DNA of 32,849 bases. Origin: Erysipelotrichaceae bacterium (GTDB taxonomy: Bacteria > Bacillota_I > Bacilli_A > Erysipelotrichales > Erysipelotrichaceae). Positions 3,515-23,754 of this stretch are shown here, piece by piece. The DNA is taken from assembly GCA_015058845.1 (NCBI GenBank), contig SVBO01000011.1:1-32849 (forward strand). Reading direction: 5' to 3'. Each line of letters opens with the position of its first letter. The stretch's first letter is position 1. The position numbers and the translations under genes are program-made. The notes under the pieces were generated by a model, which was given only the letters and a program-made list of their open reading frames with translations, did not search any database and was not told the DNA's origin.

Positions 3515-3541
3515 CGTACATAAAAATGGAGAATGTTGGAT

Positions 3542-5140
3542 ATGTTAAAAGTTGAAACAAAAAAAGAATTAATATTAGATTTAGAAAAACGAGTTAATGA
3601 TAAAATTTTAGAACGGACAAATTATGAGTTATTGAAAAAATTAATAGAAAAAGCAGATACTCTAGATGAAGCAATAAATATAAAAATACTAGGTACCCAC
3701 TATAAAAAAACTGGGTTTCATTTTGATCCACGACTTGAGAAATTAAGTGATACAATAAAGTACTTTTCAAAAAACAATAAATTATCATTTATTACAGATT
3801 TAAATAAATTGCATCACAAGTTAATTATTGGTGACAATTATCCAGCGTTATTAAATCTTTTAGTTGAATATAAAGGTGCGATTGACATTATTTATATAGA
3901 CCCTCCTTATGGTAAAGATAATATGGGAGAGTTTGCTGACACAAATTACGAAAATGCGATAACACGAGATAATTTATTATCTATGTTAAAGTATCGATTG
4001 ATATTAGCAAAACAGTTATTATCTGAAGAGGGTATTATATTTTGTAGCATTGATGATAGAAATCAAGCATATGTTAAGTGTCTGTTTGATGATATTTTTG
4101 AAGAAAAAAATTTTATCGCAAGTGTTCCAAGAAAAACGGGTGCTGGTAATGCAGCAGCGAGAAATGATGCTAAATTAAGAAAACCTTTTGATTATTTATT
4201 AATTTATAAGAAATCTAACACGGTTTTGAAAAAAAAGATTGTTGGAAGGAAAGAATATAAGTATGAGGATAGTTTAGGAAGATATGACTTAGCACAATTC
4301 CAAGCTACTGGATCCGATTCAACAAGAAGTGACAGACCAAATCTTTATTATCCAGTGTATTTATCATCTGATGGAAAATTATATACAGAACCACAACCGG
4401 ACACAATTAAAACAATTTTACCAAAAAAAGTACATGGAGAAGATGGAAGATGGATGTGGAAGAAAGAAAAATTTAATCAAGACGCAAACTTATATATTGA
4501 ATATAATGATGGTTTCTTATACAGAAAGATATATTATGATGAAAATGAAGACCAAAATGTATATCAAGTAGAAGAGGCATGGTTGGCTGATGGTAAATAT
4601 AGGAATTCCGAAGGCACAACACAATTAACTGAAATTATGAATTCAGAAAAGGTTTTGTTTAATAATCCAAAGCCAGTAGATTTGATGAAATGGTGTATAA
4701 ATCTACATCCTAACAAAAATGCTGTTGTTCTTGACTTTTTTGCTGGATCAGGTAGTACAGGACAATCTGTTTTAGAATTAAATAGAGAAGATAATGGCAA
4801 AAGACAATTTATTCTTTGTACTAGTGATGAAGTTACTGATACAACACCTAATGGTATTCCTTATGATGTTACTGTAAAAAGGCTTAAAAGAATTATGACA
4901 GGTAAGTGCTATGATAATACCAGCAATTTTGAGTGGCTTAAAAAGAATGAACCGTATGGTGATAATTTGGATGTTTTAGAAATAAAAGATGTAGCAAATT
5001 TTGAAGTTACGCCCGGTAAAACTCCATTTGATGTAATTGATGAAACACTTTATGGTGTTGATAAATTCAAAACCATTCAAGAAAAAATAAATTGGGTTTG
5101 TAATAATTTTGAAAAAAATCAAAAAGAAGTGGAGGCGTAA
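3542..5140 (+). CDS. mod: Type III restriction-modification methyltransferase (Mod)
   Basis: A DNA adenine-N6 or cytosine-N4 methyltransferase that also supplies target recognition for the Type III enzyme. From ATG 3542 it has 532 residues. The catalytic motif IV is DPPY at residues 120-123, the S-adenosylmethionine motif I is DFFAGSGSTGQ starting at 398, and this order (DPPY first) marks the beta class used by EcoP1I/EcoP15I Mod. The region between (about 190-380) is the expected target recognition domain. An in-frame ATG at 3533 is only about two bases after the ribosome binding site GGAG, so 3542 is the better start. The stop lies three bases before the start of res. No tandem repeats that would give phase variation are visible. 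GATC is scarce here and codons are very AT-rich, pointing to acquisition by transfer. Confidence 0.93.
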   Translation: MLKVETKKELILDLEKRVNDKILERTNYELLKKLIEKADTLDEAINIKILGTHYKKTGFHFDPRLEKLSDTIKYFSKNNKLSFITDLNKLHHKLIIGDNYPALLNLLVEYKGAIDIIYIDPPYGKDNMGEFADTNYENAITRDNLLSMLKYRLILAKQLLSEEGIIFCSIDDRNQAYVKCLFDDIFEEKNFIASVPRKTGAGNAAARNDAKLRKPFDYLLIYKKSNTVLKKKIVGRKEYKYEDSLGRYDLAQFQATGSDSTRSDRPNLYYPVYLSSDGKLYTEPQPDTIKTILPKKVHGEDGRWMWKKEKFNQDANLYIEYNDGFLYRKIYYDENEDQNVYQVEEAWLADGKYRNSEGTTQLTEIMNSEKVLFNNPKPVDLMKWCINLHPNKNAVVLDFFAGSGSTGQSVLELNREDNGKRQFILCTSDEVTDTTPNGIPYDVTVKRLKRIMTGKCYDNTSNFEWLKKNEPYGDNLDVLEIKDVANFEVTPGKTPFDVIDETLYGVDKFKTIQEKINWVCNNFEKNQKEVEA

Positions 5141-5143
5141 TTG

Positions 5144-7216
5144 ATGCTACAAGAAATAATTGAACTTCAAAATAATGCTGTACAGAAACTTGTAGATCTA
5201 ACTCGTAATGCTAATAATAAAAAATATACTTTTAGAGCTCCAACAGGGAGTGGGAAAACTTACATGATGGCTGATTATATGAATCGCCTTTTGCAAGTTA
5301 ATTCTAATGTTGTGTTTTTAGTGTCATCATTATCTAAGAGTGATTTGGCTGGACAAAACTATGAGAAATTTTGCGAATATCATGAGTATAATGGTTTTTT
5401 AAATTTAGAACCTTATTTAATTAATAGCGAGATTTCTGGAGAGGAACGGTTGTTTATTCCTTCAAATTATAATGTGTATCTATTACCACGAGATTTATAT
5501 AAAAAGGATTCTCGTTTAATGGCGGGTCCTATGATGAATTTTTTGTATGATCTAAAGTGGGAGAAAAGAAAAAGAATTGTTTGGATTAAAGATGAGTGTC
5601 ATATTGCTACAAAAAATTTAGATGCTATTGAAGATATTTATTTTGATTTAACTATAAATTTTTCTGCTACTCCTAATTTAAAAAGAGGACAGTATCCAGA
5701 TGTAGAGATTACTGATGAAGAAGCAGAAGCATGTAAGTTAATTAAATCAGTTAGTTATGGAGATGAAAACGATTCAGTAGAAGATGCTTTAGAGAAATTT
5801 GAAGATATTAAGGTTGAGTATCGAAATCTGTTGAATGTTAATCCATGTTTGATCATTCAGATTTCAAATAAAGAAAAAGCTGAAGAGGAATGGACTAATC
5901 ATATTTTACCTGCTCTTAATAATCATCCTGATTTAAAGTGGATGCTTATTGTAAATGATCCAAAAGATTGTGATACCAATGATGTTTTTAAAGCAAAAAA
6001 AATACCAGTATCAAAATGGAAAAGTTATGCAAAGGGTAATTTGAGTGATATTGATATTATTGTTTTTAAATTAGTAATTTCTGAAGGGTGGGATATTCCT
6101 CGTGCGTGTATGCTTTACCAAGCACGAAATTCTCGAAGTAAACAACTTGATGAACAAGTTGTTGGAAGAGTTCGTAGAAATCCACGCTTGCTTGATTATG
6201 AAACACTTTCGGATGAAGGAAAAAAACTTGCTACTACAGCTTGGGTTTGGGGTGTCGTTAATCAAAATATAAGAAAGGCATATGCTGTAAAATTGTATGA
6301 TGAGTCAAAAGATATTACTAACGAAATAAGAATTAAAACTATACTGATTAAAAATTTAGCAAAGAACGAGTCTTTTGATATTACTGAGTTTTTGAATAGT
6401 AAACAAACAAAAATTACTCATAAAAGCATATTTGAACTTAATCAAAAACTTCAAAAGGCAGATTATTCCGTAAAGGAGATTATTAATGATTATGCAAGTG
6501 ACTATACGAAATGGTTTCATGCTGTAGAGTTTATTGATGATATAATCAAAGAAAGCAATCAATATCAATGTGATTATTCAAAGAGTATGGAGATAGCAAG
6601 TATAGAGTCTTTTTGTCCTGAAAGTTATTATTATGATAATGATAAATATGTTCGGATCAATAATTGGATTTGGAAACGTAAAGATGGAAATTACAAATTT
6701 TCATTTGATAGTGATGCTGAACGAGATTGGGCAGAATTATTAAAGGATATATCCTCAAATGGATTTAAAAAAATAAAAGGAAATAAAAAGAAAGATACTC
6801 ACAATGAATATGAATTTAATTTATGGGGAGAGAAGACTTCGTTAGAGACTGAGAGTAAAGAAATATATCTTTGGGGTAAAAATTATGTTCCAGATTCATT
6901 AATAAAATTTGAATATTATTTAGATTCTGTTCGTTCATCTTATCCTGATTTTATAATGAAAGATAATAAAAATCGAATTCATATCTTTGAGGTTAAAAGT
7001 GTCAATCAATCTGCAAATGTAAATATAGATAAAGACGAATATAATAGGAAAATTATAGAATTAAAAAAGAGTTATAAGCAAGCTTCGTTGATTACTGGAC
7101 ATTATTTTTATCTTCCTATCCAAAAAGGAAATGACTGGCAAATTGTTCGCTTTGTAAATGGAGTGGAGAGTATACTTTCAAGTTCTCAATTTGAAAATTC
7201 AATCCTTGAAGATTAA
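5144..7216 (+). CDS. res: Type III restriction endonuclease/helicase (Res)
   Basis: The ATP-dependent DNA translocating and cleaving subunit, which acts in complex with Mod. It is 690 residues from ATG 5144, with GGAGG at 5131-5135. SF2 helicase motifs in order: Walker A APTGSGKT (32-39), DECH (150-153), SAT (174-176), SEGWDIP, and QVVGRVRR (338-345). The nuclease is a C-terminal PD-(D/E)xK domain: PDF at 601-603 and EVK at 616-618. It is clearly shorter than EcoP15I Res (around 970 residues), a length seen in compact Type III Res proteins; all catalytic motifs are intact. It forms an operon with mod and ends before a bidirectional terminator. Composition is strongly AT-rich, unlike flanking core genes. 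Confidence 0.93.
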   Translation: MLQEIIELQNNAVQKLVDLTRNANNKKYTFRAPTGSGKTYMMADYMNRLLQVNSNVVFLVSSLSKSDLAGQNYEKFCEYHEYNGFLNLEPYLINSEISGEERLFIPSNYNVYLLPRDLYKKDSRLMAGPMMNFLYDLKWEKRKRIVWIKDECHIATKNLDAIEDIYFDLTINFSATPNLKRGQYPDVEITDEEAEACKLIKSVSYGDENDSVEDALEKFEDIKVEYRNLLNVNPCLIIQISNKEKAEEEWTNHILPALNNHPDLKWMLIVNDPKDCDTNDVFKAKKIPVSKWKSYAKGNLSDIDIIVFKLVISEGWDIPRACMLYQARNSRSKQLDEQVVGRVRRNPRLLDYETLSDEGKKLATTAWVWGVVNQNIRKAYAVKLYDESKDITNEIRIKTILIKNLAKNESFDITEFLNSKQTKITHKSIFELNQKLQKADYSVKEIINDYASDYTKWFHAVEFIDDIIKESNQYQCDYSKSMEIASIESFCPESYYYDNDKYVRINNWIWKRKDGNYKFSFDSDAERDWAELLKDISSNGFKKIKGNKKKDTHNEYEFNLWGEKTSLETESKEIYLWGKNYVPDSLIKFEYYLDSVRSSYPDFIMKDNKNRIHIFEVKSVNQSANVNIDKDEYNRKIIELKKSYKQASLITGHYFYLPIQKGNDWQIVRFVNGVESILSSSQFENSILED

Positions 7217-12127: not shown

Positions 12128-13378
12128 TTATTTACGGATCTTACTAAGTGCTAATAGAATAGATAACTTACCATATTCCAAAGATAGACCACCTTGCATA
12201 TATAAGGTATACGGCTCGATCACAGGTGCATCAGCACTCAATTCAATAGTACTACCTTGCGTGAAACTACCACAAGCCATGACTTCATCAAAAGGATAAC
12301 CAGGCATTGGAGCGGGAAGAACACGTACGAAAGAGTCGATAGGAGAAGACTCTTGGATCCCTTGTGTGAACTTTACTAGATTCTCTTCATTGCCTAACTC
12401 TACTGTTTGAATGATATCTGTACGATGATCATTATACTTAGGGGCTACATTATAGAACCCTAATTTCTCTAACATATAGGCAGAGAACACAGCTGTCTTC
12501 ATAGCACTCTTTACAGCAGCAGGGGCCATAAATAGACCTTTAAAGAAAGAATTATTCAAATTAAAATTAGCGCCTAACTCTTTCCCAATACCAGGTGCAG
12601 TTAGTCTCTCAGCCACCATCTCGATCAGATCAGCTCTACCAGCAATATACCCACCAGTAGAAGCCACACCTCCACCTAAGTTCTTCATCAATGAGCCAAC
12701 AACGATATCAGCCTCTACATGACCAGGCTCTCTAGTTTCTACTAATTCCCCATAACAGTTATCGACCATAATGATGACCTCATCATTAACCTCACGAATA
12801 CTCTTGATCACAGCCTCGATCTTATCTAAACACAAAGATTCTCTAGAAGAATACCCACGAGAACGTTGGATCTCTACTAACTTCACATCTTTTCTTGCTA
12901 AACGCTCCACGATCTTTGCAGTATCGAACCCATTATCCACAAGATCGATCTGCTCATAACTTACGCCATGTGCCTTTAAAGATTGAGTAGAATTTCCACA
13001 TAACCCGATCATCTCTTGTAAAGAATCATAAGGAGTCCCTGTTAAAGAGATCATCGTATCTCCATGTTTCAATAAAGCAGAGAAAGCAAGGTATAAAGCA
13101 TTCGTACCGCTCATAATATGCGGACGTACCAAAGCATCCTCACACCCTAACACAGTCGCGAAAATACGCTCTAACTTATCTCTGCCAGTATCATAGTTTC
13201 CATACCCATTAATATCTGCGAAATCAGTATAAGATACCTTATTCTCAATAAAAGCAGATAAGATCCTATTAGAATTATATAAACTAATACGATCGATCTC
13301 ATCATATACATCCTTTAATTCCACATCTGATCGTTCAGCCATCTCCAATAGATCTTTATCGATTTGTTCTAATATCAT
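12128..13378 (-). CDS. Methionine gamma-lyase family PLP enzyme (YnbB-like)
   Basis: A 416-residue fold-type I pyridoxal-phosphate enzyme. The pocket contains a glycine-rich phosphate-binding stretch (IMSGTNALYLAF, about 88-99), Asp206 in VDNCYGE (contact to the PLP ring nitrogen) and Lys232 in SLMKNLGGG as the Schiff-base lysine. This is the pattern of the family annotated as methionine gamma-lyase family or 'aluminium resistance' proteins (B. subtilis YnbB), whose exact substrate is not settled. I start at ATG 13378 because GAGGTG lies six bases upstream; two in-frame ATGs further up (13396 and 13426) lack a suitable site. The gene diverges from the AGCS symporter, which could supply or export small amino acids, but no functional link is proven. 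Confidence 0.85.
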   Translation of the reverse strand: MILEQIDKDLLEMAERSDVELKDVYDEIDRISLYNSNRILSAFIENKVSYTDFADINGYGNYDTGRDKLERIFATVLGCEDALVRPHIMSGTNALYLAFSALLKHGDTMISLTGTPYDSLQEMIGLCGNSTQSLKAHGVSYEQIDLVDNGFDTAKIVERLARKDVKLVEIQRSRGYSSRESLCLDKIEAVIKSIREVNDEVIIMVDNCYGELVETREPGHVEADIVVGSLMKNLGGGVASTGGYIAGRADLIEMVAERLTAPGIGKELGANFNLNNSFFKGLFMAPAAVKSAMKTAVFSAYMLEKLGFYNVAPKYNDHRTDIIQTVELGNEENLVKFTQGIQESSPIDSFVRVLPAPMPGYPFDEVMACGSFTQGSTIELSADAPVIEPYTLYMQGGLSLEYGKLSILLALSKIRK

Positions 13379-13408
13379 ACAATACACCTCATTCATACTA
13401 TCCCGTAT

Positions 13409-13414
13409 ATTATA
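13409..13414 (-). promoter_or_regulatory. Possible -10 box of the PLP lyase gene
   Basis: On the minus strand a perfect TATAAT lies about 30 bases before the start; a second TATAAT is found some 20 bases further upstream. Neither has a clear -35 box at the right spacing. Confidence 0.35.
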
Positions 13415-13514
13415 CACAAGAATCACTTATTATACTAGTAACATATTTCATCACTCATGACATAATTTAGTACATATATTACAAATCCACTGGATCCTAT
13501 ACAACAGAATTCTA

Positions 13515-13543: not shown

Positions 13544-13575
13544 TACTTTATATATACGATAAAGGGGGAATGGGC

Positions 13576-15180
13576 ATGCAATCGCTTCTTAAATTCTTTA
13601 CTGGAACAGTGAATACATTCGCGTGGATCTATGTATTATTACCCTGTGTCGCGATTGGTGGTGTATTCTTCACGATCCGAAATCGTGGTATCCAATTTAC
13701 AAAGTTTGGTTATGTGATGAAGAAAACTATCGGCAAGATGTTCCATAAACAAGAGACAGGTCAAGGTTCAGTAACACCATTTCAAGCCCTAACAACTGCA
13801 CTAGCAGCTACCGTAGGAACAGGAAATATCGTAGGAACTAGCCAAGCAATTGCAATGGGTGGCTATGGAGCGATCTTCTGGTTATGGATCGCTGCTTTGC
13901 TAGGTATGATCATTAAGTATTCTGAAGTAGTCTTATCTGTACACTTCCGTGAACGTAATGAGAAGGGGGACTTTGTAGGAGGTCCTATGTACTATATTAC
14001 TAAGGGTATGGGAAGCAACTGGAAATGGTTAGCACTTCTATATGCTTTATTTGCTGCCCTAGCATCCTTTGGGATCGGTAACTTATCACAAGCCAATAGT
14101 ATTACAGATTCTGTCAATAATGCACTAACAGTATTTATTCCATCTATGGCACAATACCGTAATACGATCAGTCTAGGGATCGGTGTGACATTAGCTATTC
14201 TAACAGCTATGGTATTATTTGGTGGTATCAAACGTATTGGTAAGGTTACAGAGTTCATGGTACCTTTCATGAGTTTATTCTATATTATCTTTACAGTCAT
14301 CGTTATTGGAGGAAATATTACTAATGTAGGAGATGCTTTCCGTTTGATCTTCCAATCAGCCTTCACTCCACAAGCAGTATTGGGAGCAGCTAGTGGTATC
14401 GCGATCAAAGAAGCGATCGTTTGGGGTCTAAGACGTAGTGCTTTCTCTAATGAAGCGGGTCTTGGTAGTGCGGCTATTGCCCATGCAGCTGCTGAAACAG
14501 AAGGGGCTGTACAACAAGGTCTACATGGGATCTTTGAGGTATTTGCTGATACATTAATGATCTGTACGTTAACAGGATTAACGATCATTGTTAGTGGAGT
14601 AGACATTGCCTTTGGTGTGAAACCAGGCTCAGCACTCATCACAAGTGCCTTCGCTACAGTATTTGGAGATAAGTTCGCAACCTTATTCGTAGCCATCGCA
14701 TTATTCTTCTTTGCCTATTCTACGATCCTTGGTTGGTCTTTATATGGTACAAGATGTGCCGAATATATCTTTGGAATGAAGTCTACTAAGTTCTATCAAG
14801 TGATCTATATCCTAATGATCGTAGTAGGAGCCACAACTTCTCTAGATGTAGTATGGGATATTGCTGATACATTCAATGGATTGATGGCTATTCCAAACTT
14901 CATAGCTCTATTCGCATTATCAGGGGTAGTTGCTAAGTTAACGAAACAATATTTCCAGAAGAAACCAGTATCTTTACCTCTATGTGATCTATTAAGACAA
15001 AATGTAGGAGGTATCGTAAAGGTGACACTTACTTCCTCTGTGTATAAAGGAGAATTAGAATACTGTGCTGATCAATACTTAGTAGTTCGTGATCCTAAGA
15101 CGAACGCTCATACAGTACTATTCCTGAAGGATGTAGAGTCATTATCCTTTGAGAATGATATTCAATATGTAAGTAACTAG
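13576..15180 (+). CDS. Alanine/glycine:cation symporter (AGCS) with extra C-terminal domain
   Basis: Sodium- or proton-coupled uptake of alanine/glycine across the cell membrane. The protein has 534 residues from ATG 13576, seven bases after AAAGGGGG; ATG 13570 is too close to that site. Family hallmarks are ALAATVGTGNIVGT (about 72-85), FVGGPMYYITKGMG, and RRSAFSNEAGLGSA. About eleven transmembrane helices end near residue 460. A further 60-70 soluble residues follow, longer than typical AGCS carriers (about 450-490). This tail (from about 479) has the spacing V-x-V-x-L, K-G-E-L, D-x-Y-L-V-V and then a short beta strand pair, resembling an Sm/SH3-like small beta-barrel. The tail may be a cytoplasmic regulatory domain. 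The gene stands alone between a promoter and a terminator. Confidence 0.92.
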   Translation: MQSLLKFFTGTVNTFAWIYVLLPCVAIGGVFFTIRNRGIQFTKFGYVMKKTIGKMFHKQETGQGSVTPFQALTTALAATVGTGNIVGTSQAIAMGGYGAIFWLWIAALLGMIIKYSEVVLSVHFRERNEKGDFVGGPMYYITKGMGSNWKWLALLYALFAALASFGIGNLSQANSITDSVNNALTVFIPSMAQYRNTISLGIGVTLAILTAMVLFGGIKRIGKVTEFMVPFMSLFYIIFTVIVIGGNITNVGDAFRLIFQSAFTPQAVLGAASGIAIKEAIVWGLRRSAFSNEAGLGSAAIAHAAAETEGAVQQGLHGIFEVFADTLMICTLTGLTIIVSGVDIAFGVKPGSALITSAFATVFGDKFATLFVAIALFFFAYSTILGWSLYGTRCAEYIFGMKSTKFYQVIYILMIVVGATTSLDVVWDIADTFNGLMAIPNFIALFALSGVVAKLTKQYFQKKPVSLPLCDLLRQNVGGIVKVTLTSSVYKGELEYCADQYLVVRDPKTNAHTVLFLKDVESLSFENDIQYVSN

Positions 15181-20140: not shown

Positions 20141-20166
20141 TAAAAAGAGAGCATTAATTGCTCTCT
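20141..20166 (-). terminator. Terminator overlapping the aminopeptidase stop codon
   Basis: Arms AGAGAGCA (20146-20153) and TGCTCTCT (20159-20166); the minus-strand stop TAA is in the 5-base loop. TTTTTA follows on the minus strand. Confidence 0.85.
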
Positions 20167-21401
20167 AATAACTCTTCCGCAAAGTCACCATCTCTAAAGA
20201 TCACAACTTCCTTACCATCCTTAGTATATCCAATAATAGAAGTATCCTTAGCACCTACCATAAAGTCAACATGAATAGAAGAATCATTCAAATGCTTAGC
20301 CTCCCAAGTAGACTTATCCACAGGATGAGCATTTACACAACTAGGGAAACCTCTACCTAAAGCTAAGTGACAAGAAGCATTCTCATCGATCAATGTATTA
20401 TAGAATACATAGCCAGATAAACTGATAGGAGAATGATATGGAACAAATGCTACTTCTCCTAAATATCCACTAGTCTCATCAGTCTCGATCGTCTTGCGAA
20501 GTAACTCTTCTCCTACCTCAGCCTTACAATCGATCGCCTTACCATCCTTGAAAGTGATCTCGAAATGATCTACGATCTTACCACCTAGTAACAATGGCTT
20601 AGTAGACACTACCTTACCTTGAGTGCGCCACTTATCAGGAGAAGTACAGATCTCTACAGTAGGAATATTCGCTACATAATCAGGTCTATCAGTAGGCTTC
20701 ACATAACGTGTACCAAATGTCGCATCTTCATGTAGACCAAATTCGATATCAGTTCCATTGGAAGAAGTCATACGTAAACGATCAAAGTGATAGTCAGTTA
20801 ACTTTTGTTGGATCTTACCTTTCTCAATCTTTCTCTTAGTCCATGCTTCTACAGGATCGTTATCTTCCGTGATATATACAAAGTCTAAGATCAATTTCCA
20901 GAACTTATCTAACACTGTTTCCTTTGGTTCCTCAGGCATAACAGTCTCTGCCCATATTTGCGTAGGGACAGCTGCGATACACCATTGAATACCATCACTA
21001 GCGATCTTAGAGCGAATGATGTTTCTCTTATCATTAGTATGTGTTTGGATCGCATGGGCTCTCTCATCACTTAAGTCATCCATTAGATGAGGGTTAGGAC
21101 TTGCGAATAGTAAAGAACAAGCCCCTTCATTTAAATAATGTGATAGACTTTCTCTTTCCCATTGTTCTACATAGGCTACATCCTTAGGATCTCTGTGTAA
21201 AGAATGTATCTTAGTGATCGTAGAATCAGTATAATGAACGACTACTTCACCAGCCTTCTCCTTATACGCAGCCTCAGTAACCATACGAGCAAACTCATAT
21301 GCCTCTACAGGAGCCTCAATGATCACCTTTTGACCTACCTTTACATCTAGCCCAACTCTGACTAATAAGTGAGCGTATTTCTCAAGTAATTCTTTTTTCA
21401 T
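20154..21401 (-). CDS. M29-family metallo-aminopeptidase
   Basis: A 415-residue cytoplasmic exopeptidase of the AmpS/AmpT/PepS family, which removes N-terminal residues with two metal ions. The family's metal ligands can be seen in order: Glu in NIPTVEICTSP, Glu in LGEVAFVPYHSP, Glu/His in DENASCHLALG, and His and Asp in IHVDFMVG. Length is normal. I start at ATG 21401, preceded by AAGGAGGA; the frame stays open for another 123 codons upstream, but that part overlaps the divergent Sel1 gene and its amino acids look like noncoding sequence. It recycles peptides into amino acids, in keeping with an amino-acid-based lifestyle. Confidence 0.92.
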   Translation of the reverse strand: MKKELLEKYAHLLVRVGLDVKVGQKVIIEAPVEAYEFARMVTEAAYKEKAGEVVVHYTDSTITKIHSLHRDPKDVAYVEQWERESLSHYLNEGACSLLFASPNPHLMDDLSDERAHAIQTHTNDKRNIIRSKIASDGIQWCIAAVPTQIWAETVMPEEPKETVLDKFWKLILDFVYITEDNDPVEAWTKRKIEKGKIQQKLTDYHFDRLRMTSSNGTDIEFGLHEDATFGTRYVKPTDRPDYVANIPTVEICTSPDKWRTQGKVVSTKPLLLGGKIVDHFEITFKDGKAIDCKAEVGEELLRKTIETDETSGYLGEVAFVPYHSPISLSGYVFYNTLIDENASCHLALGRGFPSCVNAHPVDKSTWEAKHLNDSSIHVDFMVGAKDTSIIGYTKDGKEVVIFRDGDFAEELLESN

Positions 21402-21516
21402 ATACTGTATTCCTCCTTGCTTATTTGTATATATAATATCACTAATGGTAAGTATAATTCTATGTTTATTTATAGAATATAGAAACTTATATGTACTGGT
21501 AGTATTTTTGTGTGCA

Positions 21517-21525
21517 TGGTAGAAT
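21517..21525 (+). promoter_or_regulatory. Possible extended -10 promoter of the Sel1 gene
   Basis: TGGTAGAAT, an extended -10 with one mismatch to TATAAT, about 44 bases before the start. No clear -35 box. Confidence 0.35.
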
Positions 21526-21568
21526 AGGGGAAAGAGATCGAGGGATTTGAATTTAGCGAGGTGGACAT

Positions 21569-21958
21569 ATGGCAAGCAATTATTACAAACCATGTAAAGA
21601 ATTAGAAATGTGTGAAGAATTAATCGAAAAATATTGGAAATCAAAACAATATGATAAATGTTTTGAAGGGCATTTGCCATTAGCAGAACAAGGGTATCCT
21701 CTTGCAGAATGTCAAATAGGCTACTTTTATTTTGAGGGTCTTGGTATTGAAAAAGACTTAGAAAAAGCATTTTATTGGACGCATCGTGCAGCAGAACATG
21801 GCGATAGAGATGGACAATTCAATTTAGCGTGGTTTTATGAAGAGGGATATGGTGTAAATATTGACTTAGAAAAAGCGAAATATTGGTATAAAAAAGCAGC
21901 AATGCAAAATCATGACTTAGCAATCAATAAATGTAAAGAAATGAATATTAATTTATAA
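21569..21958 (+). CDS. Small Sel1-like repeat protein
   Basis: A 129-residue protein without signal peptide. Two and a half Sel1-like repeats are visible: LAEQGYPLAECQIGYFYFEG (about 38-57) with GIEKDLEKAFYWTHRAAEHG, then RDGQFNLAWFYEEGYGVNID with LEKAKYWYKKAAMQNH. Sel1 repeats are helical pairs that bind other proteins; small bacterial forms act as adaptors. The start ATG 21569 follows GAGGTGG (21559-21565). The gene has no GATC and is AT-rich, unlike its neighbours, so it may be a recent arrival. Partner unknown. Confidence 0.8.
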   Translation: MASNYYKPCKELEMCEELIEKYWKSKQYDKCFEGHLPLAEQGYPLAECQIGYFYFEGLGIEKDLEKAFYWTHRAAEHGDRDGQFNLAWFYEEGYGVNIDLEKAKYWYKKAAMQNHDLAINKCKEMNINL

Positions 21959-22190: not shown

Positions 22191-23639
22191 TTACTGATCT
22201 TCCCCAAAATCAGCCATATAAGCCTCTAATAACTTCTCTGGCCAATCACTAGTAGGCTCTAAAGTACCAGTAAAGAAACGTAAAGTCTTAGGCTCACGTA
22301 CAAAACGTAATCCACCTACTAAATGTCTATGATCATATAACCACTTCACACGGTCGATCACATATTCAGTTTGAGAAAGAGTAAATACACGACGAGGGAA
22401 TGCTAGACGTACCATTTCTACTGAAGCAATACGTTCACTTCCATCTGGATTTCTCTCTTCAGATAAAGTACCGCGTTCCATACCACGAATACCACCACAT
22501 AGATATAAAGCAGCTACAAGAGCACCAGCAGGATATTCCTCAGAAGGAACATGCGCTAATACTTCCTTCGCATTGATATGAGCCCCTAGACCTCCCCCAG
22601 GAGTGATCATAGGAACACCTAGAGCATCTAACTCCTTCACAGCATGATTAATGAACTGAGGAGATTGAGAGATCACATCGAAATCCATAGTCTCATCAAA
22701 CCCGATCGTCATAGCTTCCATTTCCTTAACAGACATACCACCATACGTTAAGAAACCTTCATACATAGTAATATAATCTTCTAATTCATGGAATAAAGCT
22801 TCATCACGCACTAGAATACCGCCTCCGCGACCAAAACCAAACTTACGCCCAGAGAAGTAGATGATATCGAATAGATCAGCGATCTTACGAGTGATCTCTC
22901 TAATAGAAAGATCCTTTAAAGACTCTTCTCTAGTCTTATTGAAGTATAAGTTATCTTGTAATAGAGAAGCATCTAGTACAGTAGGAATCCCATATTCTCT
23001 AGCAATATCAGTAGCAGCCTTCATATTCTCATAAGAAATAGGTTGTCCACCGATCAAGTTAGTACCCGCCTCTAAACGTAAGTATGCGATATTATCTGCA
23101 CCTTCCTTAGCAATACAAGCACGTACCTTATCTAGATCGATATTTCCTTTGAATGGTAGAGTGCTTTGGGCGATCAATCCCTCATCTCTGATCAATTCCT
23201 CAACATGACCACCTAATGTAGTAACGTGAGCCTTAGATGTAGTGAAATGATAGTTCATGATGATACAATTACCAGGCTTAACAAAATGCTTAGCGATGAT
23301 ATGCTCACAAGCACGACCTTGGTGTGTAGGTAATAGATTAGGGATCCCGAAGATCTCTTCTAACTTATCTCGCATTCTATAGAATGTTTCACTACCTGCA
23401 TACGCATCGTCTGCACGTAACATAGCAGATTGCATGTTGTCACTCATAGCATTTACACCAGAGTCAGTCAACATATCCATGAAGATATCTCCATTATGTA
23501 ATAAGAAAGTGTTGAATCCAGCTTCCTTCATCTTAGCAAGACGTTGTTTAGCGGGTAATAGAGTTAACTTTTGAACGATCTTTACTTTATGCATCTCCAT
23601 TGGTACAGGAGCACGATTGTAGAATTTGATAATTGCCAT
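22191..23639 (-). CDS. Divergent tryptophanase/tyrosine phenol-lyase family enzyme
   Basis: A 482-residue PLP-dependent beta-eliminating lyase. Kept family residues include Tyr80 (DDAYAGSETFY), Arg109 (THQGRA), Asn194 (GTNLIGGQP), Asp223 (VLDAS), the Schiff-base lysine Lys266 (SGRK), Tyr293 region (YEGFLTYGG), Arg385 (GIRGMERG) and the substrate-carboxylate arginine in RLAFPRR (411-417). GIRGMERG is closer to tyrosine phenol-lyase than to E. coli tryptophanase. Three positions differ from both: the PLP-oxygen-binding arginine is Leu226, the lysine before the Schiff-base lysine is Arg265, and the active-site histidine of GGH is Leu351. So the substrate and product are uncertain, and it should not be called an indole- or phenol-producing enzyme without testing. 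It starts at ATG 23639 after GGGAGG and diverges from a LysR gene. Confidence 0.82.
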   Translation of the reverse strand: MAIIKFYNRAPVPMEMHKVKIVQKLTLLPAKQRLAKMKEAGFNTFLLHNGDIFMDMLTDSGVNAMSDNMQSAMLRADDAYAGSETFYRMRDKLEEIFGIPNLLPTHQGRACEHIIAKHFVKPGNCIIMNYHFTTSKAHVTTLGGHVEELIRDEGLIAQSTLPFKGNIDLDKVRACIAKEGADNIAYLRLEAGTNLIGGQPISYENMKAATDIAREYGIPTVLDASLLQDNLYFNKTREESLKDLSIREITRKIADLFDIIYFSGRKFGFGRGGGILVRDEALFHELEDYITMYEGFLTYGGMSVKEMEAMTIGFDETMDFDVISQSPQFINHAVKELDALGVPMITPGGGLGAHINAKEVLAHVPSEEYPAGALVAALYLCGGIRGMERGTLSEERNPDGSERIASVEMVRLAFPRRVFTLSQTEYVIDRVKWLYDHRHLVGGLRFVREPKTLRFFTGTLEPTSDWPEKLLEAYMADFGEDQ

Positions 23640-23690
23640 ATATTATACCTCCCAATATTGTTAATAATACTTTATTAGTATATAATATTT

Positions 23691-23728
23691 TTATCTATTT
23701 AGGAAGTGAATGAATTAGATAATATCTA
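23691..23728. promoter_or_regulatory. LysR-type binding site in the divergent promoter region
   Basis: TAGATA-A-TATCTA (23716-23728) is a 13-bp dyad that fits the T-N11-A rule for LysR-type regulators. A third half-site TTATCTA sits at 23691-23697. The region separates the lyase and the LysR gene (115 bp), as usual for a LysR protein that controls itself and its neighbour. Confidence 0.55.
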
Positions 23729-23754
23729 TCGAAATTATTAATGAGGTAATAATT

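Follow-up and report, generated by a model that had tools for sequence, protein, structure and literature searches.

A putative third subfamily beside tyrosine phenol-lyase and tryptophanase: a lyase with altered cofactor surroundings in an Erysipelotrichaceae bacterium

Introduction

A stretch of 32,849 nucleotides of an Erysipelotrichaceae bacterium (assembly GCA_015058845.1, contig SVBO01000011.1, positions 1 to 32,849; hereafter the window) carries a gene for a homologue of tryptophanase (TnaA) and tyrosine phenol-lyase (TPL) in which several active-site residues are replaced. The question raised by this locus is whether the encoded protein, hereafter the lyase, is one of these two enzymes or represents another one, and which reaction is to be expected of it. 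A literature search in open-licence papers revealed no description of such a lyase subfamily.

The Gene and Its Profile Matches

The gene, present as one copy in the genome, has exactly the coordinates given in an earlier note on this DNA and lies on the minus strand (Table 1). Its product matched the Pfam profile PF01212 (Beta_elim_lyase) with 153 bits at a cut-off of 27, with K266 and D223 aligned, and thus belongs to this superfamily. Among the NCBIfam models it passed the broad one named 'tryptophanase' (NF009709; 549 bits, cut-off 285), but fell short of the equivalogs: 412.5 bits were obtained with TIGR02618 (TPL), where 720.7 are required, and 324.6 and 369.6 bits with TIGR02617 and NF053783 (TnaA), the cut-offs being 825.8 and 750, respectively. 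By sequence, the closest solved structures are those of TPLs (identity of about 38-40%; 32% to E. coli TnaA). Membership tests of this kind support the view that the lyase is not a TPL, although its mode of action may be similar.

The possibility that the gene is dead or in decay was rejected in view of the open frame, the presence of the catalytic Lys in 101/101 relatives and the low dN (about 0.1) at saturated dS in all five sequence pairs compared by the Nei-Gojobori method; by these estimates, the lyase gene is under purifying selection.

Table 1. Features of the lyase locus (positions in the window).
Feature	Position	Strand	Basis
PLP-dependent aromatic-amino-acid beta-lyase homologue, putative third subfamily, 482 aa	22191..23639	-	Profiles, alignment, tree, structure
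Codon of Schiff-base Lys266	22842..22844	-	Alignment, codon read-out
Ser225-Leu226, replacing TPL Thr216-Arg217	22962..22967	-	Alignment, residue table
Arg265-Lys266-Phe-Gly-Phe-Gly-Arg271: Arg for TPL Lys256, loop shorter by one, basic residue before Gly-Gly	22827..22847	-	
Leu351-Gly-Ala-His354: His343 of TPL missing, an invariant His following three residues later	22578..22589	-	Residue table
Asp78, replacing Glu69 invariant in TPL/TnaA	23406..23408	-	Residue table
Divergent LysR-type regulator, 294 aa	23755..24639	+	Pfam HTH_1 and LysR_substrate; arrangement common to relatives
Imperfect palindrome ATTAA-N5-TCGAT, window version of ATCGA-N5-TCGAT (2 mismatches)	23728..23742	-	Putative LysR site
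Promoter-like TTCCTA-N17-TATACT of the lyase gene	23677..23705	-	Sequence

Altered Residues as a Signature of the Clade

The earlier note had listed five active-site residues as kept and three as replaced, and both lists were borne out by alignment with the TPL of C. freundii and TnaA of E. coli, the codons being re-read. Lys266 corresponds to K257 of TPL and K270 of TnaA, Asp223 to D214 and D227, Asn194 to N185 and N198, Tyr80 to Y71 and Y74, and Arg109 to R100 and R103, while Leu226, Arg265 and Leu351 occupy the places of TPL R217, K256 and H343; the first of these is presumably the contact to the PLP oxygen, as assigned in that note. Ser263, Thr58, Ser60 and Arg411 are also kept.

The relatives compared were drawn from genome contigs (80 loci kept of 91), from the window's family, class and phylum (244, 395 and 392 genomes) and from plasmids. 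Counted were full-length proteins of >50% identity with about 400 or more query residues aligned, the window protein being excluded (n = 101); four short matches (L110, L026, L023 and L028) were left out beforehand. The outgroup comprised 47 homologues, 19 of them TPL-like and 28 TnaA-like.

Leu226, Arg265 and Leu351 were present together in 101/101 relatives and any of them in 0/47 outgroup homologues, the TPL residues being found at these positions in 0/101 relatives; with three identical row pairs and many closely related gut genomes in the sample, such counts do not represent independent events. The earlier observation is in fact understated, as linked changes had been missed: Asp78 in place of TPL E69 (101/101 relatives vs. 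0/47 outgroup homologues), Ser225 in place of T216 and His354 in place of F346 (each in 101/101 relatives), a basic residue at position 271 (Arg in 95 and Lys in 6 of the 101 relatives; 0/47 in the outgroup), and a loop after the Schiff-base Lys that is shorter by one residue (spacing of 5 vs. 6; 101/101 vs. 0/47). The motifs S[AGS]RKx4[RK]GG and GGL[GA]xH were each found in 101/101 relatives and DASL[LIM] in 100/101, each occurring in 0/47 outgroup homologues. The clade-specific positions number 14, including the three cofactor-side residues that are invariant in the outgroups. Ten of the 11 named plasmid outgroup records were counted (the Variovorax record was left out of every count): the three positions are occupied by Arg, Lys and His in the eight of TPL/TnaA type and by Arg, Ser and His in the two polyketide SH-type domains. 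Being fixed across the relatives, the altered set is a family signature rather than a result of chance or sequencing error.

The residues of the ring pocket follow TPL. Thr124, Met379, Arg381 and Phe448 of TPL are represented by T133, M387, R389 and F455, kept in the 101 relatives except for two gaps at F455; Asp137 and His463 of TnaA are, accordingly, Thr133 and Phe455 in the lyase and its family, with the same two gaps at the second position. TPL Met288 is replaced with Phe296 in the lyase. Across the clade, as read from the alignment, the catalytic core and the TPL ring residues are thus kept, those of TnaA are absent, and the cofactor surroundings have been rebuilt uniformly. The changes seem to be grouped about the cofactor and not in the ring pocket.

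Phylogeny, Structure and Distribution

In the tree of 52 rows (LG+C20 PMSF, midpoint root), the 25 family rows formed one clade (100/100) with a stem of 1.29, sister, under this root, to the four TPLs; these constituted a clade of their own (100/98), and the TnaA-like rows fell outside, on other branches. The AlphaFold2 model of the lyase (mean pLDDT of 93.0) found its best VIA structure match in TPL (Z 53.2, rmsd 1.2, 445 residues, 39% identity), with TnaA close behind, followed by the thiocysteine-lyase domain 9cen (Z 35.5). The lyase belongs to a separate branch, apparently uncharacterised, of the tyrosine- and tryptophan-splitting enzymes.

Matches of >50% identity were detected in 5/244 genomes of the family, 21/395 of the class and 11/392 of the phylum, these samples overlapping. 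The relatives are mostly gut Bacillota, plus a copy on a Rhodobacter plasmid. A canonical homologue is also present in 8/21 lyase-bearing genomes of the class survey, which argues for a separate job of the lyase. Recent horizontal transfer of the gene is likely, considering its patchy occurrence in the window's family and the mostly Clostridia-type labels of its closest relatives, although its composition (GC3 of 0.30) resembles that of the neighboring genes. One of the five matches in the family (L023, G219 contig 36) comprises only the last 78 residues of the lyase at 77% identity with an internal stop, and is apparently a decayed copy.

Genomic Context and Putative Regulation

The lyase gene stands alone in the window, preceded by the divergent regulator gene. 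In close relatives, a LysR gene was recorded at position -1 in 28 loci of one cluster, with four more carrying a second LysR type, and beside the lyase in at least 26 loci of another survey; in the latter, a simple gene finder called the lyase in 88/102 regions and missed it in 14, so that its neighbor counts are lower bounds. Among the distant members examined, neither LysR beside the lyase nor any other recurring neighbor was found, and no pathway was found in the Rhodobacter lyase region. With LysR as the sole conserved partner, restricted to the closer clade, the context names no substrate. In three related genomes (L163, L168 and L169), the lyase lies near a gene of a shared cluster, c24, which we take to be aspartate-semialdehyde-dehydrogenase-like.

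The palindrome ATCGA-N5-TCGAT with no more than two mismatches was detected in 22/26 lysR-lyase gaps, 13 of them having it exact, whereas 200 mononucleotide shuffles gave a mean of 2.2 and a maximum of 6 such gaps. Of the four gaps without it, three lie beside a LysR gene of the second type and one was shortened by the gene call. The palindrome is a probable LysR site, and together with the regulator and the promoter-like site (Table 1) it fits a substrate-inducible gene.

Elsewhere in the window, several genes are recognizable. A second PLP lyase-type protein (12128-13426, minus strand; Pfam Met_gamma_lyase PF06838, 509 bits) adjoins a gene of the sodium:alanine symporter family (13570-15180). 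The open reading frame of an M29-type peptidase (20154-21770, minus strand; PF02073, 438 bits) begins some 125 codons before the domain; translation probably starts further inside. A DNA methylase (N6_N4_Mtase) and an adjoining Res subunit of type III restriction (3533-7216, plus strand) probably make up a restriction-modification pair.

Cofactor Surroundings and a Proposed Internal Cation

The K+ ligands of TPL are, as we assume, Glu69, Gly52 and Asn262, and the shortened loop 265-271 presumably corresponds to the cation-site loop of TPL, where, owing to the alignment gap, Arg271 stands opposite Asn262 or the residue after it. The substitution Lys269Arg leaves E. coli tryptophanase partly active. 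His354, Arg265 and Arg/Lys271 could serve as stand-ins for the lost side chains, and His354 may take a place similar to that of the lost His. In a model domain, the residues matched here to TPL Thr216 and Arg217 sandwich PLP and contact the carboxylate (PMC3870968, in part). In both TPL and TnaA, PLP is firmly bound only with the help of a monovalent cation, as stated by the title of Toraya (1976), cited in PMC2770544 (in part). Pyruvate kinases with Lys117 instead of Glu117 are K+-independent (PMC5501398, in part), and P-loop NTPases offer another precedent for a basic side chain doing the job of a K+ ion (PMC6310460, in part). Because Glu69 is always Asp in the family and the Asn262 loop is short and basic, and in view of the Lys117 precedent, we propose an internal cation, with which the lyase would probably be independent of K+.

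Possible Function of the Lyase

Counterparts of the kept residues are described for the tryptophan indole-lyase (TIL) of P. vulgaris, where Lys-266 performs transaldimination and abstraction of the α-proton, Asp-223 binds N1 of PLP, Asn-194 binds O3' and the carboxylate, Arg-414 and Thr-50 hold the carboxylate, Ser-52 and Ser-263 hydrogen-bond the lysine, and Tyr-72* protonates the leaving group (PMC11301627, in part). In the ring site of TPL, according to the same source, Thr-124 and Arg-381 bind the phenol OH, Phe-448/449 being also located there. Substitution of Arg381 in TPL impairs activity with Tyr and not with other substrates (PMC3870968, in part), and so the retention of Arg389 suggests that the ring is tyrosine-like and bears a polar group. 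The kept TPL pocket points to an aryl, presumably hydroxyaryl, substrate in preference to an S-alkyl one.

On these grounds, we regard it as on balance probable that the lyase, a PLP enzyme of fold type I in a third subfamily next to TPL and TnaA, is active and acts on an aromatic L-amino acid (hydroxyaryl or similarly hydrogen-bonding), with an internal cation and with induction through LysR. We infer its activity, substrate and K+ independence as follows. The enzyme would perform α,β-elimination of the aromatic L-amino acid, yielding pyruvate, ammonia and an aryl leaving group; Lys266 would take the α-proton, Tyr80 would protonate the leaving group, and the substrate carboxylate would be held by Arg411 and the polar group of the ring by Thr133/Arg389. 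The Arg/Lys271 loop and Asp78 would replace the monovalent cation of TPL and TnaA, so that no K+ would be required. The divergent regulator would probably switch on the single lyase gene when the substrate is present. A more far-reaching proposal is tentative: a third aromatic-amino-acid beta-lyase, mainly of gut Bacillota, in which Arg/Lys and Asp78 are built in for K+, a Leu/Arg rearrangement makes up for the cofactor Arg, and the substrate is neither Tyr nor Trp but, for example, a diet-derived or modified hydroxyaryl-alanine.

It is also possible, if doubtful, that the protein is a plain tyrosine phenol-lyase with Tyr as its physiological substrate and phenol as its product, the changes near PLP being neutral or only removing the need for K+. 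TPL (EC 4.1.99.2; TIGR02618; PDB 1tpl, 2ez1) is the nearest subfamily by sequence, tree and structure, and shares with the lyase the fold, the Schiff-base Lys, Tyr71, Arg100, Asn185, Asp214 and Arg404, as well as the four ring-binding residues. However, the score with the TPL equivalog and the identity to TPLs are low for this assignment, and the clade-specific positions speak against it: Arg217 is Leu, Lys256 is Arg, His343 is Leu, Glu69 is Asp, F346 is His, the loop is short with Arg/Lys, and Met288 is Phe.

An unlikely reading is that of a C-S beta-lyase, i.e., a cysteine desulfhydrase or an S-aryl/S-alkyl-cysteine lyase. TIL also forms the aminoacrylate from S-ethyl-cysteine (PMC11301627, in part), and the SH domain of leinamycin-type polyketide synthases, which belongs to the same superfamily (9cen, 20% identity), is a thiocysteine lyase (PMC8479088, in part). 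The two SH-type domains in our sample, however, possess Arg in place of Y71, lack R381 and carry Ser at 256, but have retained Arg217, His343 and the Asp that follows the Schiff-base Lys, the lyase family being the opposite (Tyr80 and Arg389 in the lyase) and retaining the aryl pocket.

Less probable still is another reaction on the same scaffold, such as racemization, retro-aldol cleavage or other Cα chemistry: Arg217, Lys256 and His343 change together, a joint loss that could alter the reaction type, and several fold-type-I relatives, e.g., threonine aldolase, do perform other chemistry, but Tyr80, Ser60, Ser263 and Arg411 of the lyase, corresponding to residues with a part in elimination by TIL (PMC11301627, in part), are all retained. 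Finally, an ordinary tryptophanase (EC 4.1.99.1; TIGR02617, NF053783), as suggested by the broad NCBI model, is hardly credible in spite of the common fold, catalytic core and place within NF009709, as both TnaA equivalogs were failed, Asp137, His463 and the cofactor-side residues are absent, and the TnaA-like rows branch elsewhere; on sequence grounds, there is good support for the lyase being no tryptophanase.

Implications

The label 'tryptophanase' would therefore mislead, as the earlier note had suspected; it is carried, for instance, by the Rhodobacter plasmid relative (58.7% identical). The same altered active-site residues occur in every relative examined, so that probably no indole is made, and surveys equating 'tryptophanase' with indole production would miscount this family, found in 21/395 genomes of the class and on 80 fetched contigs. 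The built-in cation, if true, would offer a natural means of testing for what reason K+ is required by TPL and tryptophanase, and the substrate of the lyase would extend the ways in which gut bacteria set aryl compounds free from amino acids.
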